DNA of 64,000 bases from an uncultured Bacteroidota bacterium (GTDB taxonomy: Bacteria > Bacteroidota > Bacteroidia > Chitinophagales > Saprospiraceae), in the NCBI GenBank assembly GCA_903933805.1, contig CAIZLM010000072.1:1-64000 (forward strand), in the 5' to 3' direction. The translations under genes were made by a program, and so were the position numbers. The number at the start of each line of letters is the position of its first letter. Position 1 is the first letter of the stretch. The notes beneath the pieces were generated by a model. It was not told where the DNA came from. It did no database searches and worked only from the letters and a program-made list of their open reading frames with translations. Positions 44,976-51,094 of the stretch are shown here, piece after piece.

Positions 44976-46046
44976 CTACCAACGCATCAGTGCGCTGGCC
45001 CAGGTAAAACCGCTGCCAAATGCTGCCAGACAAACCAAATCCCCCTCCTTTATTTTACCGGCTTCCCACGCTTCGCACAAGGCAATTGGAACAGACGCCG
45101 CCGTGGTGTTGCCGTATTTCTGTATGTTGTTCCATACTTGGTCATCCCGCAGGCCCAAGAGACGCTGTACCATCTGGCTGATCCGCAAGTTGGCTTGGTG
45201 CGGAATGAACATCGAAATGTCTGTGGTCTGAAGCCCAACTTCTTTCAAGGCCTCCTGGATAACTTCCGGAAACTTCTGAATGGCCATTTTAAAGACAAAT
45301 TGACCTTCCATATTGGGATAAATCAATCCCTCGGCTATCATTTTTGGCGTAATAAAGATTTCGCCATACGTGTCCGCCGGCGGATAGCCGTAATCAACAG
45401 CCTCTTCCACCTTCGCTGCGTGGTAGCCTCCATGCGCACCTGGATTGATAAATGCCAATTTTTCGGCGTATGTACCATTCGAGTGCAATTTCGTGGTAAG
45501 AATTCCACGAGCGGGATCTTCAGAACGTTGAATGACCGCAGCACCGGCTCCATCTCCAAAAATCACGGTCACATTGCGGCCACGGGTACTAAAATCTAGG
45601 CCCATCGAGTGCATCTCGGAGCCAACCACGAGCACATTTTTATACATGCCCGTCTTCACAAATTGATCCGCAATGCTGAGGCCATACAGAAAGCCACTGC
45701 ACTGATTCCGAACATCCAACGCACCGGCCTCATGACCAGTAATGCCCAGTTCACGTTGCAACAACACCCCGCAACCAGGAAAATAGTAATCGGGACTAAG
45801 CGTCGCAAACACGATGAAATCAACCTCATCGGGGCGGATACCGGCACGCTCACAGGCGATACGTGCAGCGGCAGCACCCATAGAAGTGGTTGTTTCCGCA
45901 TGTTTTTTTCCGTATCGGCGCTCCTGAATGCCGGTGCGCTCCTGAATCCACGCATCTGTGGTCTCCATAACATTGGAGAGCTCGTCATTGGTGACGATGC
46001 GCTCCGGGACGTAGTAGCCGATACCGGCAATCTTGCTGCGAAACAT
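44976..46046 (-). CDS. fabH: 3-oxoacyl-[ACP] synthase III
   Basis: A 356-residue condensing enzyme starting fatty acid chains from acyl-CoA and malonyl-ACP. Catalytic Cys116 in ALDVRNQCSGFLYGL, His in MFIPHQANLRI and Asn in YGNTTAASVPIAL complete the triad. The N-terminus (IAGIGYYVPERIVTNDEL) is standard. It is about 20-30 residues longer than E. coli FabH, as in other Bacteroidota paralogues. It is divergent from the TolC gene with 92 bases between starts, and the shared region holds a striking inverted repeat carrying -7 boxes for both directions. Confidence 0.95.
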   Translation of the reverse strand: MFRSKIAGIGYYVPERIVTNDELSNVMETTDAWIQERTGIQERRYGKKHAETTTSMGAAAARIACERAGIRPDEVDFIVFATLSPDYYFPGCGVLLQRELGITGHEAGALDVRNQCSGFLYGLSIADQFVKTGMYKNVLVVGSEMHSMGLDFSTRGRNVTVIFGDGAGAAVIQRSEDPARGILTTKLHSNGTYAEKLAFINPGAHGGYHAAKVEEAVDYGYPPADTYGEIFITPKMIAEGLIYPNMEGQFVFKMAIQKFPEVIQEALKEVGLQTTDISMFIPHQANLRISQMVQRLLGLRDDQVWNNIQKYGNTTAASVPIALCEAWEAGKIKEGDLVCLAAFGSGFTWASALMRW

Positions 46047-46083
46047 TCTGATGGGTTGTTTAAATGGTTAATAGCTCTGCTTG

Positions 46084-46135
46084 GCAAAGTTAATTGATCG
46101 AAGGCATTTTTTAGCCACCGATCAATTAACTTTGC
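46084..46135. promoter_or_regulatory. Symmetric divergent promoter/operator between fabH and tolC
   Basis: A perfect 17-bp inverted repeat (GCAAAGTTAATTGATCG at 46084-46100 and its complement at 46119-46135) with an 18-base spacer. Each arm contains TAACTTTG, an exact Bacteroidota -7 box: at 46127-46134 facing tolC and at 46085-46092 facing fabH. The tolC box lies four bases before its ATG, so its mRNA would be leaderless or nearly so; the fabH leader would be about 30 bases. The repeat may be both promoter pair and a dimeric operator. Confidence 0.65.
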
Positions 46136-46138
46136 AAA

Positions 46139-47491
46139 ATGAAATGTCAGGCTACCATTTTTCTTGCCCTTATCATCTTAACAAATGTCGCAGTTGCTCA
46201 GTCGGGCATACGCGCAATTCATTTGGAAGAAGGTCTTCAACTCGCGCTGGCCAACAACGCTCAGGTGCGCAAAAATAAACTTGACCGCCAATTGCTGGAA
46301 CGCAAATTCAAAGAAGCGCGCAGTGCAGTGCTACCAGATGTGAATGCCGGGATTAACTTGGACTGGTACCCACTCTTACCGACCCAGTTGCTGCCGGGTC
46401 AACTGTTCGGCATGGCCGATGGCACCTTTGTGTCCACCCAATTCGGCAGACCATGGCAACTATCTGGTACCATCACCATGGAGCAGCCAGTCCTGAATGA
46501 ATCCGCACGCAGAAGTATCCCAGCACTCAATGTGACGCGCGGTATCAGCGACATGTTGCTCGAAAAATCAAACGAAGACGTTATCTTCAACACCGCAACG
46601 GTGTTTTACCAAACCCTACAGATGGAACAACTGCTGCGGGGGGTAAAAGCCAATGTTGGCAAACTGGAGGCACTCCAAGGTATGGCAGAACTGCAACTGG
46701 CCAATGGGTACGCCATTCCAACCGATGTAAAACGTATCCGGGTGGCTCGGACCAACCTCGAAACCCAACGACAAAACCTGCTCACCGCCATCAGTAGCCT
46801 GCGACAAACACTGCAGTTCCTCTGCGGATTGCCCTACGAAGATCCACTAGAATTGTTGGAAGAAGTAGGCACCCCTGCCGCTGACTCGCTGCGCTGGCAA
46901 TCCTTAAACCTCGTTACGGAAACCACCACCGAGCACCGTCTCCTCATGTATCAACTTGAAATGACCCGTATCCAGGGCCGCAGCGTCCTGGCAGAAGCAT
47001 TCCCGACCTTGGATTTTTATGCCGCAGTTTCTGCACAGGCTTTCCGCCCAGACATCAATTTCTTTGAGCCCGACCGACGCTGGTATGGCATGGCCGCTGT
47101 TGGTTTTAAACTCAAAGCCCCGCTTTTTGATGGCTTCCGGGTGCACAACAAATCGTGGGTTTTCAAACTGGAAGAAAAAAAACTGGAAGAAGATCACCGA
47201 CAGTTTGTTGCCGCTAAAACCCTCGACTTCCGAATGGCACATGAGCAATTCCAAAATGCGCTCCGCGCCTTACAAACCCAGAACGACAACGTCGCCCTAG
47301 CCCAGGAAATAACCGATAAACTACTGTTACAATACAAAGAAGGTATCGCCTCTCTAACTGACTTACTCAACGCACAAACCGCCCTCTCCGAGGCTGAAAC
47401 AAACTACTGGCAACAGGTTTTTGGATATAAACTGGCCGTTTTGAAACTACTCAAATCCGCTGGGCGACTGGAAGATTTAAAAGTAAAATAG
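46139..47491 (+). CDS. TolC-family outer-membrane efflux protein
   Basis: A 450-residue protein with a signal peptide (ending TNVAVAQ, about residue 21) and two OEP repeats of long coiled coils (LEEGLQLALANNAQVRKNKLD in the first and ALQTQNDNVALAQEITDKLL with YKEGIASLTDLLNAQTALSEAE in the second). The second is the hallmark end of TolC channels. It would form the outer-membrane exit of the efflux pump whose adaptor, permease and ATPase follow at 47993-51015. A 501-base element-filled gap separates it from the adaptor, so the set may be two transcripts. The ATG at 46139 immediately follows the inverted repeat. Confidence 0.93.
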   Translation: MKCQATIFLALIILTNVAVAQSGIRAIHLEEGLQLALANNAQVRKNKLDRQLLERKFKEARSAVLPDVNAGINLDWYPLLPTQLLPGQLFGMADGTFVSTQFGRPWQLSGTITMEQPVLNESARRSIPALNVTRGISDMLLEKSNEDVIFNTATVFYQTLQMEQLLRGVKANVGKLEALQGMAELQLANGYAIPTDVKRIRVARTNLETQRQNLLTAISSLRQTLQFLCGLPYEDPLELLEEVGTPAADSLRWQSLNLVTETTTEHRLLMYQLEMTRIQGRSVLAEAFPTLDFYAAVSAQAFRPDINFFEPDRRWYGMAAVGFKLKAPLFDGFRVHNKSWVFKLEEKKLEEDHRQFVAAKTLDFRMAHEQFQNALRALQTQNDNVALAQEITDKLLLQYKEGIASLTDLLNAQTALSEAETNYWQQVFGYKLAVLKLLKSAGRLEDLKVK

Positions 47492-47500
47492 TGCCGTTTT

Positions 47501-47661
47501 GTAAGTGATTAGGTGGTCGTGTCTCAAATAAAAAGTGGTCATTTTTACCATGCGAAGCGGGGGGTGTGTAGCCCGCGTAATAGCCAACACGGTAAAAAAT
47601 GGACGCAGTATGGCGGAAAGTGGCCTTTTTGGGCCAGACAGCGTGCTCCTTAAGCCGTTAC
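47501..47661 (+). repeat. Two-armed hairpin element, long form (161 bp), copy 11
   Basis: Left arm GTAAGTGATTAGGTGG then TCGTGTCTCAAATAAAAAGTGG. Right arm GGGCCAGACAGCGTG then CTCCTTAAGCCGTTAC. The inside includes TATGGCGGAAAGTGGCC. Flanks do not match. It begins nine bases after the tolC stop. Confidence 0.78.
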
Positions 47662-47700
47662 CTTTAAAAAAATAGATGATCTCCATCACCTCCATTAATG

Positions 47701-47744
47701 CCGGAAATTTGCAAAAAAAAACCAATAAATTCCGGAAATTTGCA
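47701..47744. promoter_or_regulatory. Paired 13-bp direct repeats (possible operator)
   Basis: CCGGAAATTTGCA occurs at 47701-47713 and again at 47732-47744. The start-to-start distance is 31 bases, close to three helical turns, which suits cooperative binding of a regulator. It is upstream of the adaptor-permease-ATPase operon, with copy 12 inserted in between. Confidence 0.45.
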
Positions 47745-47789
47745 GTCTTTATAACATACGAGTTTTCTGGAGTTTTTTCGAAAATTTTG

Positions 47790-47942
47790 GTGGCAACTTT
47801 GGTGGTCGTATCTGAAACAAAATAAGTGGCCTTTTTAGGCCTGACGAATCGAGTTTTTGCAGGCATTGGCTGCACTTCAGTCAAAATAATCTGCGAAAAT
47901 GGGCCTTTTTGAGTCAGACAATGCGCCATCTACCTTGATTAC
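47790..47942 (+). mobile_element. Two-armed hairpin element, long form (153 bp), copy 12, with exact 8-bp target duplication
   Basis: Left arm GTGGCAACTTTGGTGG then TCGTATCTGAAACAAAA. Right arm GAGTCAGACAATGCGCC then ATCTACCTTGATTAC. The inside carries GTCAAAATAATCTGCGAAAA, matching the inside of copy 6. AAATTTTG flanks both ends (47782-47789 and 47943-47950). Confidence 0.82.
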
Positions 47943-47992: not shown

Positions 47993-49075
47993 TTGAAACG
48001 CCTAATCTCTGTAGTATTGTCCATCATACTCCTCTATTCCTGCCAAAAGCAAGTAGAGCAAACCAAGCCAACGGTCGGTAAAATTTCCGAATCCGTTTAT
48101 GCGTCGGGTATCATTAAAAGCAAAAACCAATACCAGGTTTTTGCATCGGTCGGTGGGCTGATTCAAAAAATGTTGGTCAAAAAAGGCGATCTGGTCAAAA
48201 AAGGCGATCCGCTCTTCGTCATCCAACATGAACCCTCCATCCTGAATGCCGAAAATGCCAGACTAGCCGCTGATTTTGCCATCGCCAATACCCGTGGCGA
48301 ACGATTGGACGAACTGAAAAGCAACATCGAAACTGTCAGAAGCCGGATGGCCAACGACTCGCTGCTCCTCTTGCGTCAACGCGGACTCTGGGCCCAACAA
48401 ATTGGCTCAAAAGTGGAATTGGAACAGCGTGAATTGGCTTATACCAGTGCTGCCGCCAACTATCAGGCGGCCATTTACCGATACAATGACCTAAAAAAAC
48501 AACTTGCGTTCGCTGCTGCGCAATCCAACAAACAACTTTCTATCAGCAAAACAATCTCGGAAGATTATGTCGTTCGTAGTCGAATGGATGGACGAGTGTA
48601 CAGTATTGCCAAAGAAGCCGGCGAAATTGTCAATACACAAAGCCCCGTAGCGGTAATTGGAGATGCCAATCAATACATCGCCGAACTTCAGGTGGACGAA
48701 TCAGATATTGTCCGTATTAAAATTGGGCTTCAAACACTGATCACCCTAGAAGCCTTTAAAGGTCAGGTTTTTAACGCACAGGTGGCAAAAATTGACCCCA
48801 TCATGAACGAGCGCTCTAGAACATTTACCATTGAAGCCACTTTCACAGAACTGCCTCCGGTTTTATACCCCTATTTATCAACAGAAGCCAATATCATCAT
48901 TCAGGCCAAAGAGCATGTTATGACCATCCCAAGATCCTATTTGATCGGAGACTCTCTTGTAACCCTGCGCAACAGGCTTACACAAAAAGTAACCGTCGGC
49001 TTGAAAGATTACCAGTTGGCGGAAATAATCAGTGGCCTTGACGCAGGTGAAACCATCCTGAAACCAGCAAAATGA
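47993..49075 (+). CDS. Efflux periplasmic adaptor lipoprotein (HlyD/MacA-like)
   Basis: The 360-residue protein begins at a TTG: MKRLISVVLSIILLYSCQKQ is a lipoprotein signal with the lipobox LLYSC at Cys17. No in-frame ATG occurs before residue 57, so a TTG start is needed. Adaptor features are the biotinyl-like half-motifs (GLIQKMLVKKGDLVKKGDPL and VRSRMDGRVYSIAKEAGEIV), a coiled-coil hairpin between them (about residues 85-180) and a beta-barrel domain (LQVDESDIVRIKIGLQTLI). It links the inner-membrane ABC permease to the TolC protein. Its stop overlaps the permease start (ATGA), so the two are translationally coupled. Confidence 0.9.
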   Translation: MKRLISVVLSIILLYSCQKQVEQTKPTVGKISESVYASGIIKSKNQYQVFASVGGLIQKMLVKKGDLVKKGDPLFVIQHEPSILNAENARLAADFAIANTRGERLDELKSNIETVRSRMANDSLLLLRQRGLWAQQIGSKVELEQRELAYTSAAANYQAAIYRYNDLKKQLAFAAAQSNKQLSISKTISEDYVVRSRMDGRVYSIAKEAGEIVNTQSPVAVIGDANQYIAELQVDESDIVRIKIGLQTLITLEAFKGQVFNAQVAKIDPIMNERSRTFTIEATFTELPPVLYPYLSTEANIIIQAKEHVMTIPRSYLIGDSLVTLRNRLTQKVTVGLKDYQLAEIISGLDAGETILKPAK

Positions 49076-51015: not shown

Positions 51016-51094
51016 ACAATTGGTTGTTGGTCGCGTTTGAGACAAAAAAACGGCCACTTTTTGTCTCAAACAGCGGGCCACCTAAACAGTTAAC
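51016..51094 (+). mobile_element. Two-armed hairpin element, short form (79 bp), copy 13, with 7/8 target duplication
   Basis: ACAATTGGTTGTTGG then TCGCGTTTGAGACAAAAA, and a second GTCTCAAACAGCG side with CCACCTAAACAGTTAAC. The inner GAGACAAAAA/TTTTTGTCTC stem is perfect. Flanks CCGCATAA (51008-51015) and CCGCAAAA (51095-51102) differ at one base; the left one contains the ATPase stop codon. Confidence 0.82.

Follow-up and report, generated by a model that had tools for sequence, protein, structure and literature searches.

A perfect inverted repeat carrying outward-facing -7 boxes between fabH and a probably leaderless tolC in a Saprospiraceae genome

The window, by which we mean the whole 64,000-nucleotide stretch of DNA that was analyzed, lies on one of the 336 contigs of a draft genome of 4.2 Mb (4,206,178 bp). 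Two divergent genes in the window flank an inverted repeat. On the minus strand, fabH (44976–46046, ATG at 46046) encodes a beta-ketoacyl-ACP synthase III of 356 aa. On the plus strand, tolC (46139–47491, ATG at 46139) encodes an outer membrane efflux protein of the TolC type, 450 aa long and with OEP domains. Both protein assignments were upheld. Genes for an adaptor, a MacB/FtsX-like permease and an ABC ATPase follow 3′ of tolC. The adaptor gene contains an exact 18-nt tandem duplication (TGGTCAAAAAAGGCGATC) at 48174–48209, by which six residues are repeated.

The left arm of the repeat, GCAAAGTTAATTGATCG on the minus strand, occupies 46084–46100, and the right arm, CGATCAATTAACTTTGC on the plus strand, occupies 46119–46135. 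The arms are perfectly complementary over 17 bp and enclose a loop of 18 nt, in which the stem resumes past a 2-by-2 mismatch as GGC/GCC and leaves an inner loop of 8 nt. Folded as DNA, the repeat gave -20.5 kcal/mol (z -7.65), and 0 of 200 shuffles folded equally well. Each arm carries the exact -7 box TAACTTTG facing outward, at 46092–46085 on the minus strand toward fabH and at 46127–46134 on the plus strand toward tolC. This part of the initial annotation was confirmed by the sequence. A ATTTTTTA tract (46106–46113, no strand assigned) is centred on the dyad at 46109.5.

Perfect repeats were counted in 723,324 of the 4,206,178 bp of the genome, a non-random sample made up of the window and of contigs taken by numerical order or named by an earlier match. 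With loops of up to 40 nt, 36 repeats had arms of at least 14 bp and 10 had arms of at least 17 bp. Three first-order Markov sequences of equal length gave a single arm-14 repeat in total and none longer. The 17-bp repeat is not a product of chance, and because long perfect repeats are far above the Markov control, their frequency in the source genome has biological reasons. We placed 35 repeats (arm of at least 14 bp) against the reading frames; a T/A-only palindrome in contig L124 was excluded, and two L072 rows belong to a single nested hairpin. Fifteen were in convergent gaps, 13 in co-directional gaps and 2 inside frames; for 3 one flank was unknown, and the remaining 2 were labelled divergent. 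Divergent gaps made up 73 of the 411 gaps between frames overall in the sample. The divergent setting is what sets the fabH/tolC repeat apart among the long repeats of this genome. The second repeat labelled divergent, L122:1658, was rejected as a parallel, since by our reading of the sequence, rather than by a gene call, it seems to lie behind a frame on the plus strand.

On the tolC side we looked for a -7 box of the sigma-ABfr type, TAnnTTTG, and the box at 46127–46134 matches it. The box is followed by CAAA and then by the ATG, a spacing of 4 nt. Its first three letters, TAA (46127–46129), form an in-frame stop, so the tolC frame is unable to begin upstream of the box. An AUG start with no usable start further upstream, which is one mark of a leaderless gene, is thus present. 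In the data reported for Flavobacterium johnsoniae, promoters read TAHHTTTG, often lie 4 or 5 nt from the transcription start and are A/T-rich at -18 and -28 (PMC6847099). With the 4-nt spacing and the mapped Flavobacterium spacing of that report, the +1 of tolC would fall on the A of the ATG, at 46139. The plus strand of the fabH–tolC gap holds no further TAnnTT[T/C]G, either in the window or in the relatives L001, L038 and L039.

The tolC relatives used were L001–L025 and L038–L060, made distinct by sequence. The named tolC relatives come from Saprospiraceae and other Bacteroidota metagenome assemblies, apart from one contig labelled Thermoanaerobaculia. L026 (a fragment), L037 (the genome's own copy) and L061–L066 (six loci outside the genus, 23–25% identity) were excluded, and L060 was dropped from the spacing test because it has no ATG; there was no box there either. 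Start codons were chosen by alignment to the TolC protein of the window alone, blind to the box. TAnnTTTG with at least five of its six letters was present 4 or 5 nt 5′ of the ATG in 26 of 34 distinct relatives, which are not independent and include several near-duplicates; all six letters were present in 15. At the remaining 29 offsets between 0 and 30 (29 × 34 cells), only 7 cells had at least five box letters. The box was missing at 4–5 nt in the remaining 8 of 34, of which L042 recovers it if its start is moved upstream by a few codons. When such a shift was allowed, the box was found at 4–5 nt in 27 of 35 relatives and in the window. Conserved spacing from promoter to ATG in orthologues, another mark of a leaderless gene, is therefore also seen. 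The upstream neighbour gene varies among these relatives despite the conserved box, which argues that the conservation is not mere inheritance of neighbouring sequence.

The contig titled Thermoanaerobaculia (L017, JAKLJF010000154.1) carries a tolC 57% identical to that of the window, with TACCTTTG 4 nt 5′ of its ATG. Possibly it is Bacteroidota sequence placed in the wrong bin.

In the 28 box-bearing tolC promoters, window included, positions that had played no part in the selection could be compared with mapped promoters. G at -10 or -9 occurred in 0 of 28, and C directly followed the box in 24 of 28. The A/T content at -19 to -17 was 71–79%, and the single positions -53, -47, -42 and -33 were equally A/T-rich. 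These unselected positions behave like the mapped Flavobacterium promoters, in agreement with the boxes being true promoters. The likeness to the sigma-ABfr promoters described in PMC6847099 thus covers the exact box, the lack of G at the two free positions, the spacing of 4–5 nt and the A/T richness near -18. Unlike the sigma-ABfr type, neither the fabH nor the tolC promoter has a -33 TTTG element in its sequence. However, this element is also weak or unidentified, and much less evident, in F. johnsoniae, so its lack here is compatible with membership.

Judging from the box, its spacing and its conservation, the tolC mRNA is probably leaderless, with its 5′ end at the start codon, and this layout would be common to most of the genus relatives examined. 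A leaderless tolC had been proposed in the initial annotation, and the box at 4–5 nt in 26 of 34 relatives and the lack of a rival plus-strand box in the intergenic region support it. Alternatively, tolC could be leadered, if the conserved TAnnTTTG-N4-ATG is not its main promoter and transcription starts further upstream or from a promoter of another sigma factor. Most mapped Bacteroidota mRNAs do have leaders in the reports we consulted: 87% of the predicted leaders exceed 10 nt in F. johnsoniae (PMC6847099), 5.5% are given as leaderless in F. psychrophilum (PMC9723704), and about 3.7% of the leaders are shorter than 10 nt in B. thetaiotaomicron (PMC7366714). At this locus, however, the gap offers no other box on the plus strand, and both the position and the letters of the box are conserved though the upstream genes differ. 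Moreover, a start upstream of the repeat would place a 17-bp hairpin (as folded in DNA) just 5′ of the ATG. We regard a leadered tolC as unlikely.

We counted TAnnTT[T/C]G before the ATGs of ORFs of at least 100 aa in the 723-kb sample. Sixteen boxes were found at 4–5 nt and 2 at 0–3 nt, against a background of 3.0 per offset at offsets 6 to 59 (Poisson 5e-4 for the peak and for the dip). Before ATGs without a long frame the dip at 0–3 nt was absent, with 61 boxes there. A peak at 4–5 nt together with a dip at 0–3 nt is what one expects if the genome avoids starts inside the gene but tolerates one at the ATG itself. The strict box TA[ACT][ACT]TTTG gave a weak peak, with 8 at 4–5 nt where single farther offsets reach 5–7, and some of the 16 boxes fall within longer genes. 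The tolC gene is thus one of a small set, and a clean leaderless share is not derivable from these counts.

Other candidate leaderless genes with a box 4–5 nt 5′ of the ATG are L105:13820, L107:15521, L108:922, L092:1991 and L072:19647. From the N-termini we take them to resemble a TetR-type regulator, pyrF, aroB, a SixA-like phosphatase and a CDP-alcohol phosphatidyltransferase, respectively.

On the other side of the repeat, the fabH ATG begins 38 nt beyond the fabH-facing box. The +1 is predicted near 46080, which would give a leader of about 34 nt. The fabH set comprised 30 loci from 42 genomes plus L001, with three further rows whose aligned start is not ATG. A full TAnnTT[T/C]G was present within 65 nt of the start in 5 of 30 distinct upstream regions, namely those of the source genome, of L132, L138 and L001 (all three with tolC as divergent neighbour) and of L152. 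Since the box lies anywhere from 31 to 63 nt in these five, its position is not fixed, and a conserved fabH-side box was rejected. The word CAACTTTGC(C) recurs about 65–85 nt 5′ of fabH in L130, L131, L139, L141, L142, L145 and L151, where it may mark either a promoter that has shifted or the end of an upstream gene.

The repeat itself had been suggested to be an operator tying membrane lipid synthesis to efflux. A dimeric or tetrameric regulator would then bind both arms and switch fabH and tolC off or on together. The symmetry is perfect, both -7 boxes are covered, and the divergent setting is unusual for a long repeat in this genome, all of which would suit an operator. Conservation upstream of tolC homologues had been named as a check, and in this the suggestion failed. 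A search with the 92-base intergenic region found the repeat in 1 of 42 genus genomes, the source genome alone. An exact search with GCAAAGTTA-N10..40-TAACTTTGC likewise matched in the source genome alone and in 0 of the 41 other genus genomes, some of which are merely 76–90% complete. Three relatives (L001, L038 and L039) share the divergent fabH/tolC order without the repeat, and they retain TACCTTAG 4 nt 5′ of the tolC ATG. Absence of the repeat from close relatives with the same gene order had been given as evidence that would tell against the earlier reading. The absence holds for these three, but they are not close, with 67–71% identity in TolC and 83–86% in FabH. Within the flanks examined, fabH divergently adjoins tolC in just 3 of 35 distinct tolC relatives. 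The two genes are therefore unlikely to be functionally tied.

No copy of the arm, exact or with one mismatch, was found elsewhere in the genome. Eight further genome sites have 2–3 mismatches to the arm, where the reversed-pattern control gave 2, and the best of them, with 2 mismatches, immediately precedes L092:1991, another gene with the box-N4-ATG layout, which is a point in favour of an operator. However, composition-shuffled arms gave 1.65 matches per 723 kb, about 10 per genome, so the 8 near sites are no excess. Only the shuffled expectation was used in this comparison, as the arm's own count in the 723-kb sample is biased by contigs chosen by earlier matches. Among the 10 neighbouring proteins scanned, no regulator domain was recognized; one of the 10 had no match of any kind. 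In addition, outward -7 boxes read CAAAnnTA...TAnnTTTG, so every pair of them forms an imperfect inverted repeat from the outset, and symmetry is to be expected from the two boxes alone. With the repeat not conserved, the near sites at chance level and no regulator among the neighbours, we consider an operator that couples fabH to tolC improbable. To us the repeat resembles an accident of evolution more than a control switch common to the two genes.

The symmetry could also act in another way. If the starts at 46139 and 46080 are right, about 59 bp apart, the two promoters share the ATTTTTTA tract as their -33 to -26 region (positions taken from the 4-nt spacing in the data of PMC6847099). The promoters might compete through this tract, with a polymerase bound at one keeping a second off the other, or a cruciform might hide both boxes; the tract is centred on the dyad and the single-strand fold is strong. 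Competition has been reported at E. coli bidirectional promoters once one direction is activated (PMC12825309), and there, too, symmetric DNA lies between divergent genes. The promoters in that report share one -10 element, with starts mostly 18, also 10 or 23, bp apart, whereas fabH and tolC have two separate boxes 34 bp apart and are not of the shared -10 type. As described there, direct clashes spare separate divergent promoters, and basal competition is too low to matter. The fabH/tolC arrangement is also not conserved. Competition or a cruciform is therefore a long shot in our view. We find it harder still to credit a private symmetric switch without a regulator, in which the shared tract or a cruciform would make fabH and the leaderless tolC respond together, equally or oppositely, to supercoiling or growth state.

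We find it scarcely credible that the repeat serves as a terminator, marks the end of a mobile element or is one copy of a dispersed repeat: 28 of the 35 placed long repeats do lie in convergent or co-directional gaps, but fabH and tolC both point away from this one, it has no second copy in the genome, and neither a terminator-like site (a G+C-rich stem with a T run behind a gene) nor an Rfam match, by which a known RNA family would be recognized, was found at it.

Dispersed words do occur in this genome. GGTCG[CT]GTCTGAGAC was found at 53 places, spread over 31 of 61 stretches, and TTTTT[GT]GGCCAGAC at 44 places in 28 stretches, and the reversed-sequence control was 0 for each. Their sites include 47509–47930 and 51023–51072 of the window and many other contigs, and several are hairpins between frames. 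This family may consist of mobile or terminator-like repeats.

The reading that we prefer, at a probability of about 70%, is that two ordinary promoters lie back to back in the fabH/tolC gap, with tolC leaderless, and that their arms were homogenised into a perfect repeat. It builds on what can be read directly in the sequences, namely the boxes, the repeat, the conserved box position and the absence of the repeat from the other genomes searched. From these we infer promoter activity, the start sites and leaderlessness. Both promoters would be of the sigma-ABfr type. With the tolC box 4 nt 5′ of the ATG, RNA polymerase would begin with the first letter of the start codon, leaving the mRNA without a leader, and the fabH promoter would be a normal, leadered one.

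Twenty outward box pairs within 80 bp were found in the genome sample. The complementary run inside the boxes was longest at fabH/tolC, with 8 pairs; the next outward pair had 5 and the remainder at most 2, as did the 10 inward control pairs. The simplest route from such a pair to the present repeat would be a quasi-palindrome template switch, by which one arm was copied onto the other, so that the two became identical over 17 bp while the box held its distance to the ATG. In yeast, short inverted repeats have been reported to have their arms made alike by template switching (PMC8604942), and quasi-palindrome template-switch mutations have been reported in E. coli (PMC7202029). Such a mutation would likewise perfect an imperfect repeat. 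At fabH/tolC, both the template switch and its direction are speculative. In genome G052, TTCGATCAATTAAC upstream of fabH (L140) shares 14 letters with the fabH-side arm, which hints that the fabH arm may be the older of the two. With 31 loci compared, this single match could have arisen by chance, and L134 likewise beat all 200 shuffled patterns; with the 12-letter core CGATCAATTAAC present in 15 of 42 genomes, it is a hint and not proof. The four intergenic regions, when aligned, were too divergent to fix the ancestral state or to date the repeat.

Leaderless genes are already known as a minority in Bacteroidota. A survey found them in 1 of 37 Bacteroidetes/Chlorobi genomes, at 2.4%, and its authors allow for underestimation there (PMC3160421); by contrast, PMC5397173 states that a high leaderless fraction had been reported for Bacteroidetes. 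As in the minor leaderless class of F. johnsoniae, F. psychrophilum and B. thetaiotaomicron, the predicted promoter of tolC abuts the ATG, which would make a ribosome-binding leader impossible. In the reports cited, these genes are known as genome-wide shares, whereas here a single orthologue retains the layout in much of the genus. No leaderless tolC in Bacteroidota was found among the literature matches listed, whose coverage is without most subscription journals. The layout conserved across much of the genus is a new datum, if a modest one.

Bacteroidetes are described as naturally without Shine-Dalgarno sequences (PMC6847099), and mRNA initiation in them is an open topic. With a promoter that abuts its ATG, tolC would be a good test case for leaderless translation. 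The repeat also calls for caution: in Bacteroidota, a pair of facing -7 boxes is palindromic by nature, and symmetry between divergent genes, when it is not conserved, is no proof of an operator.
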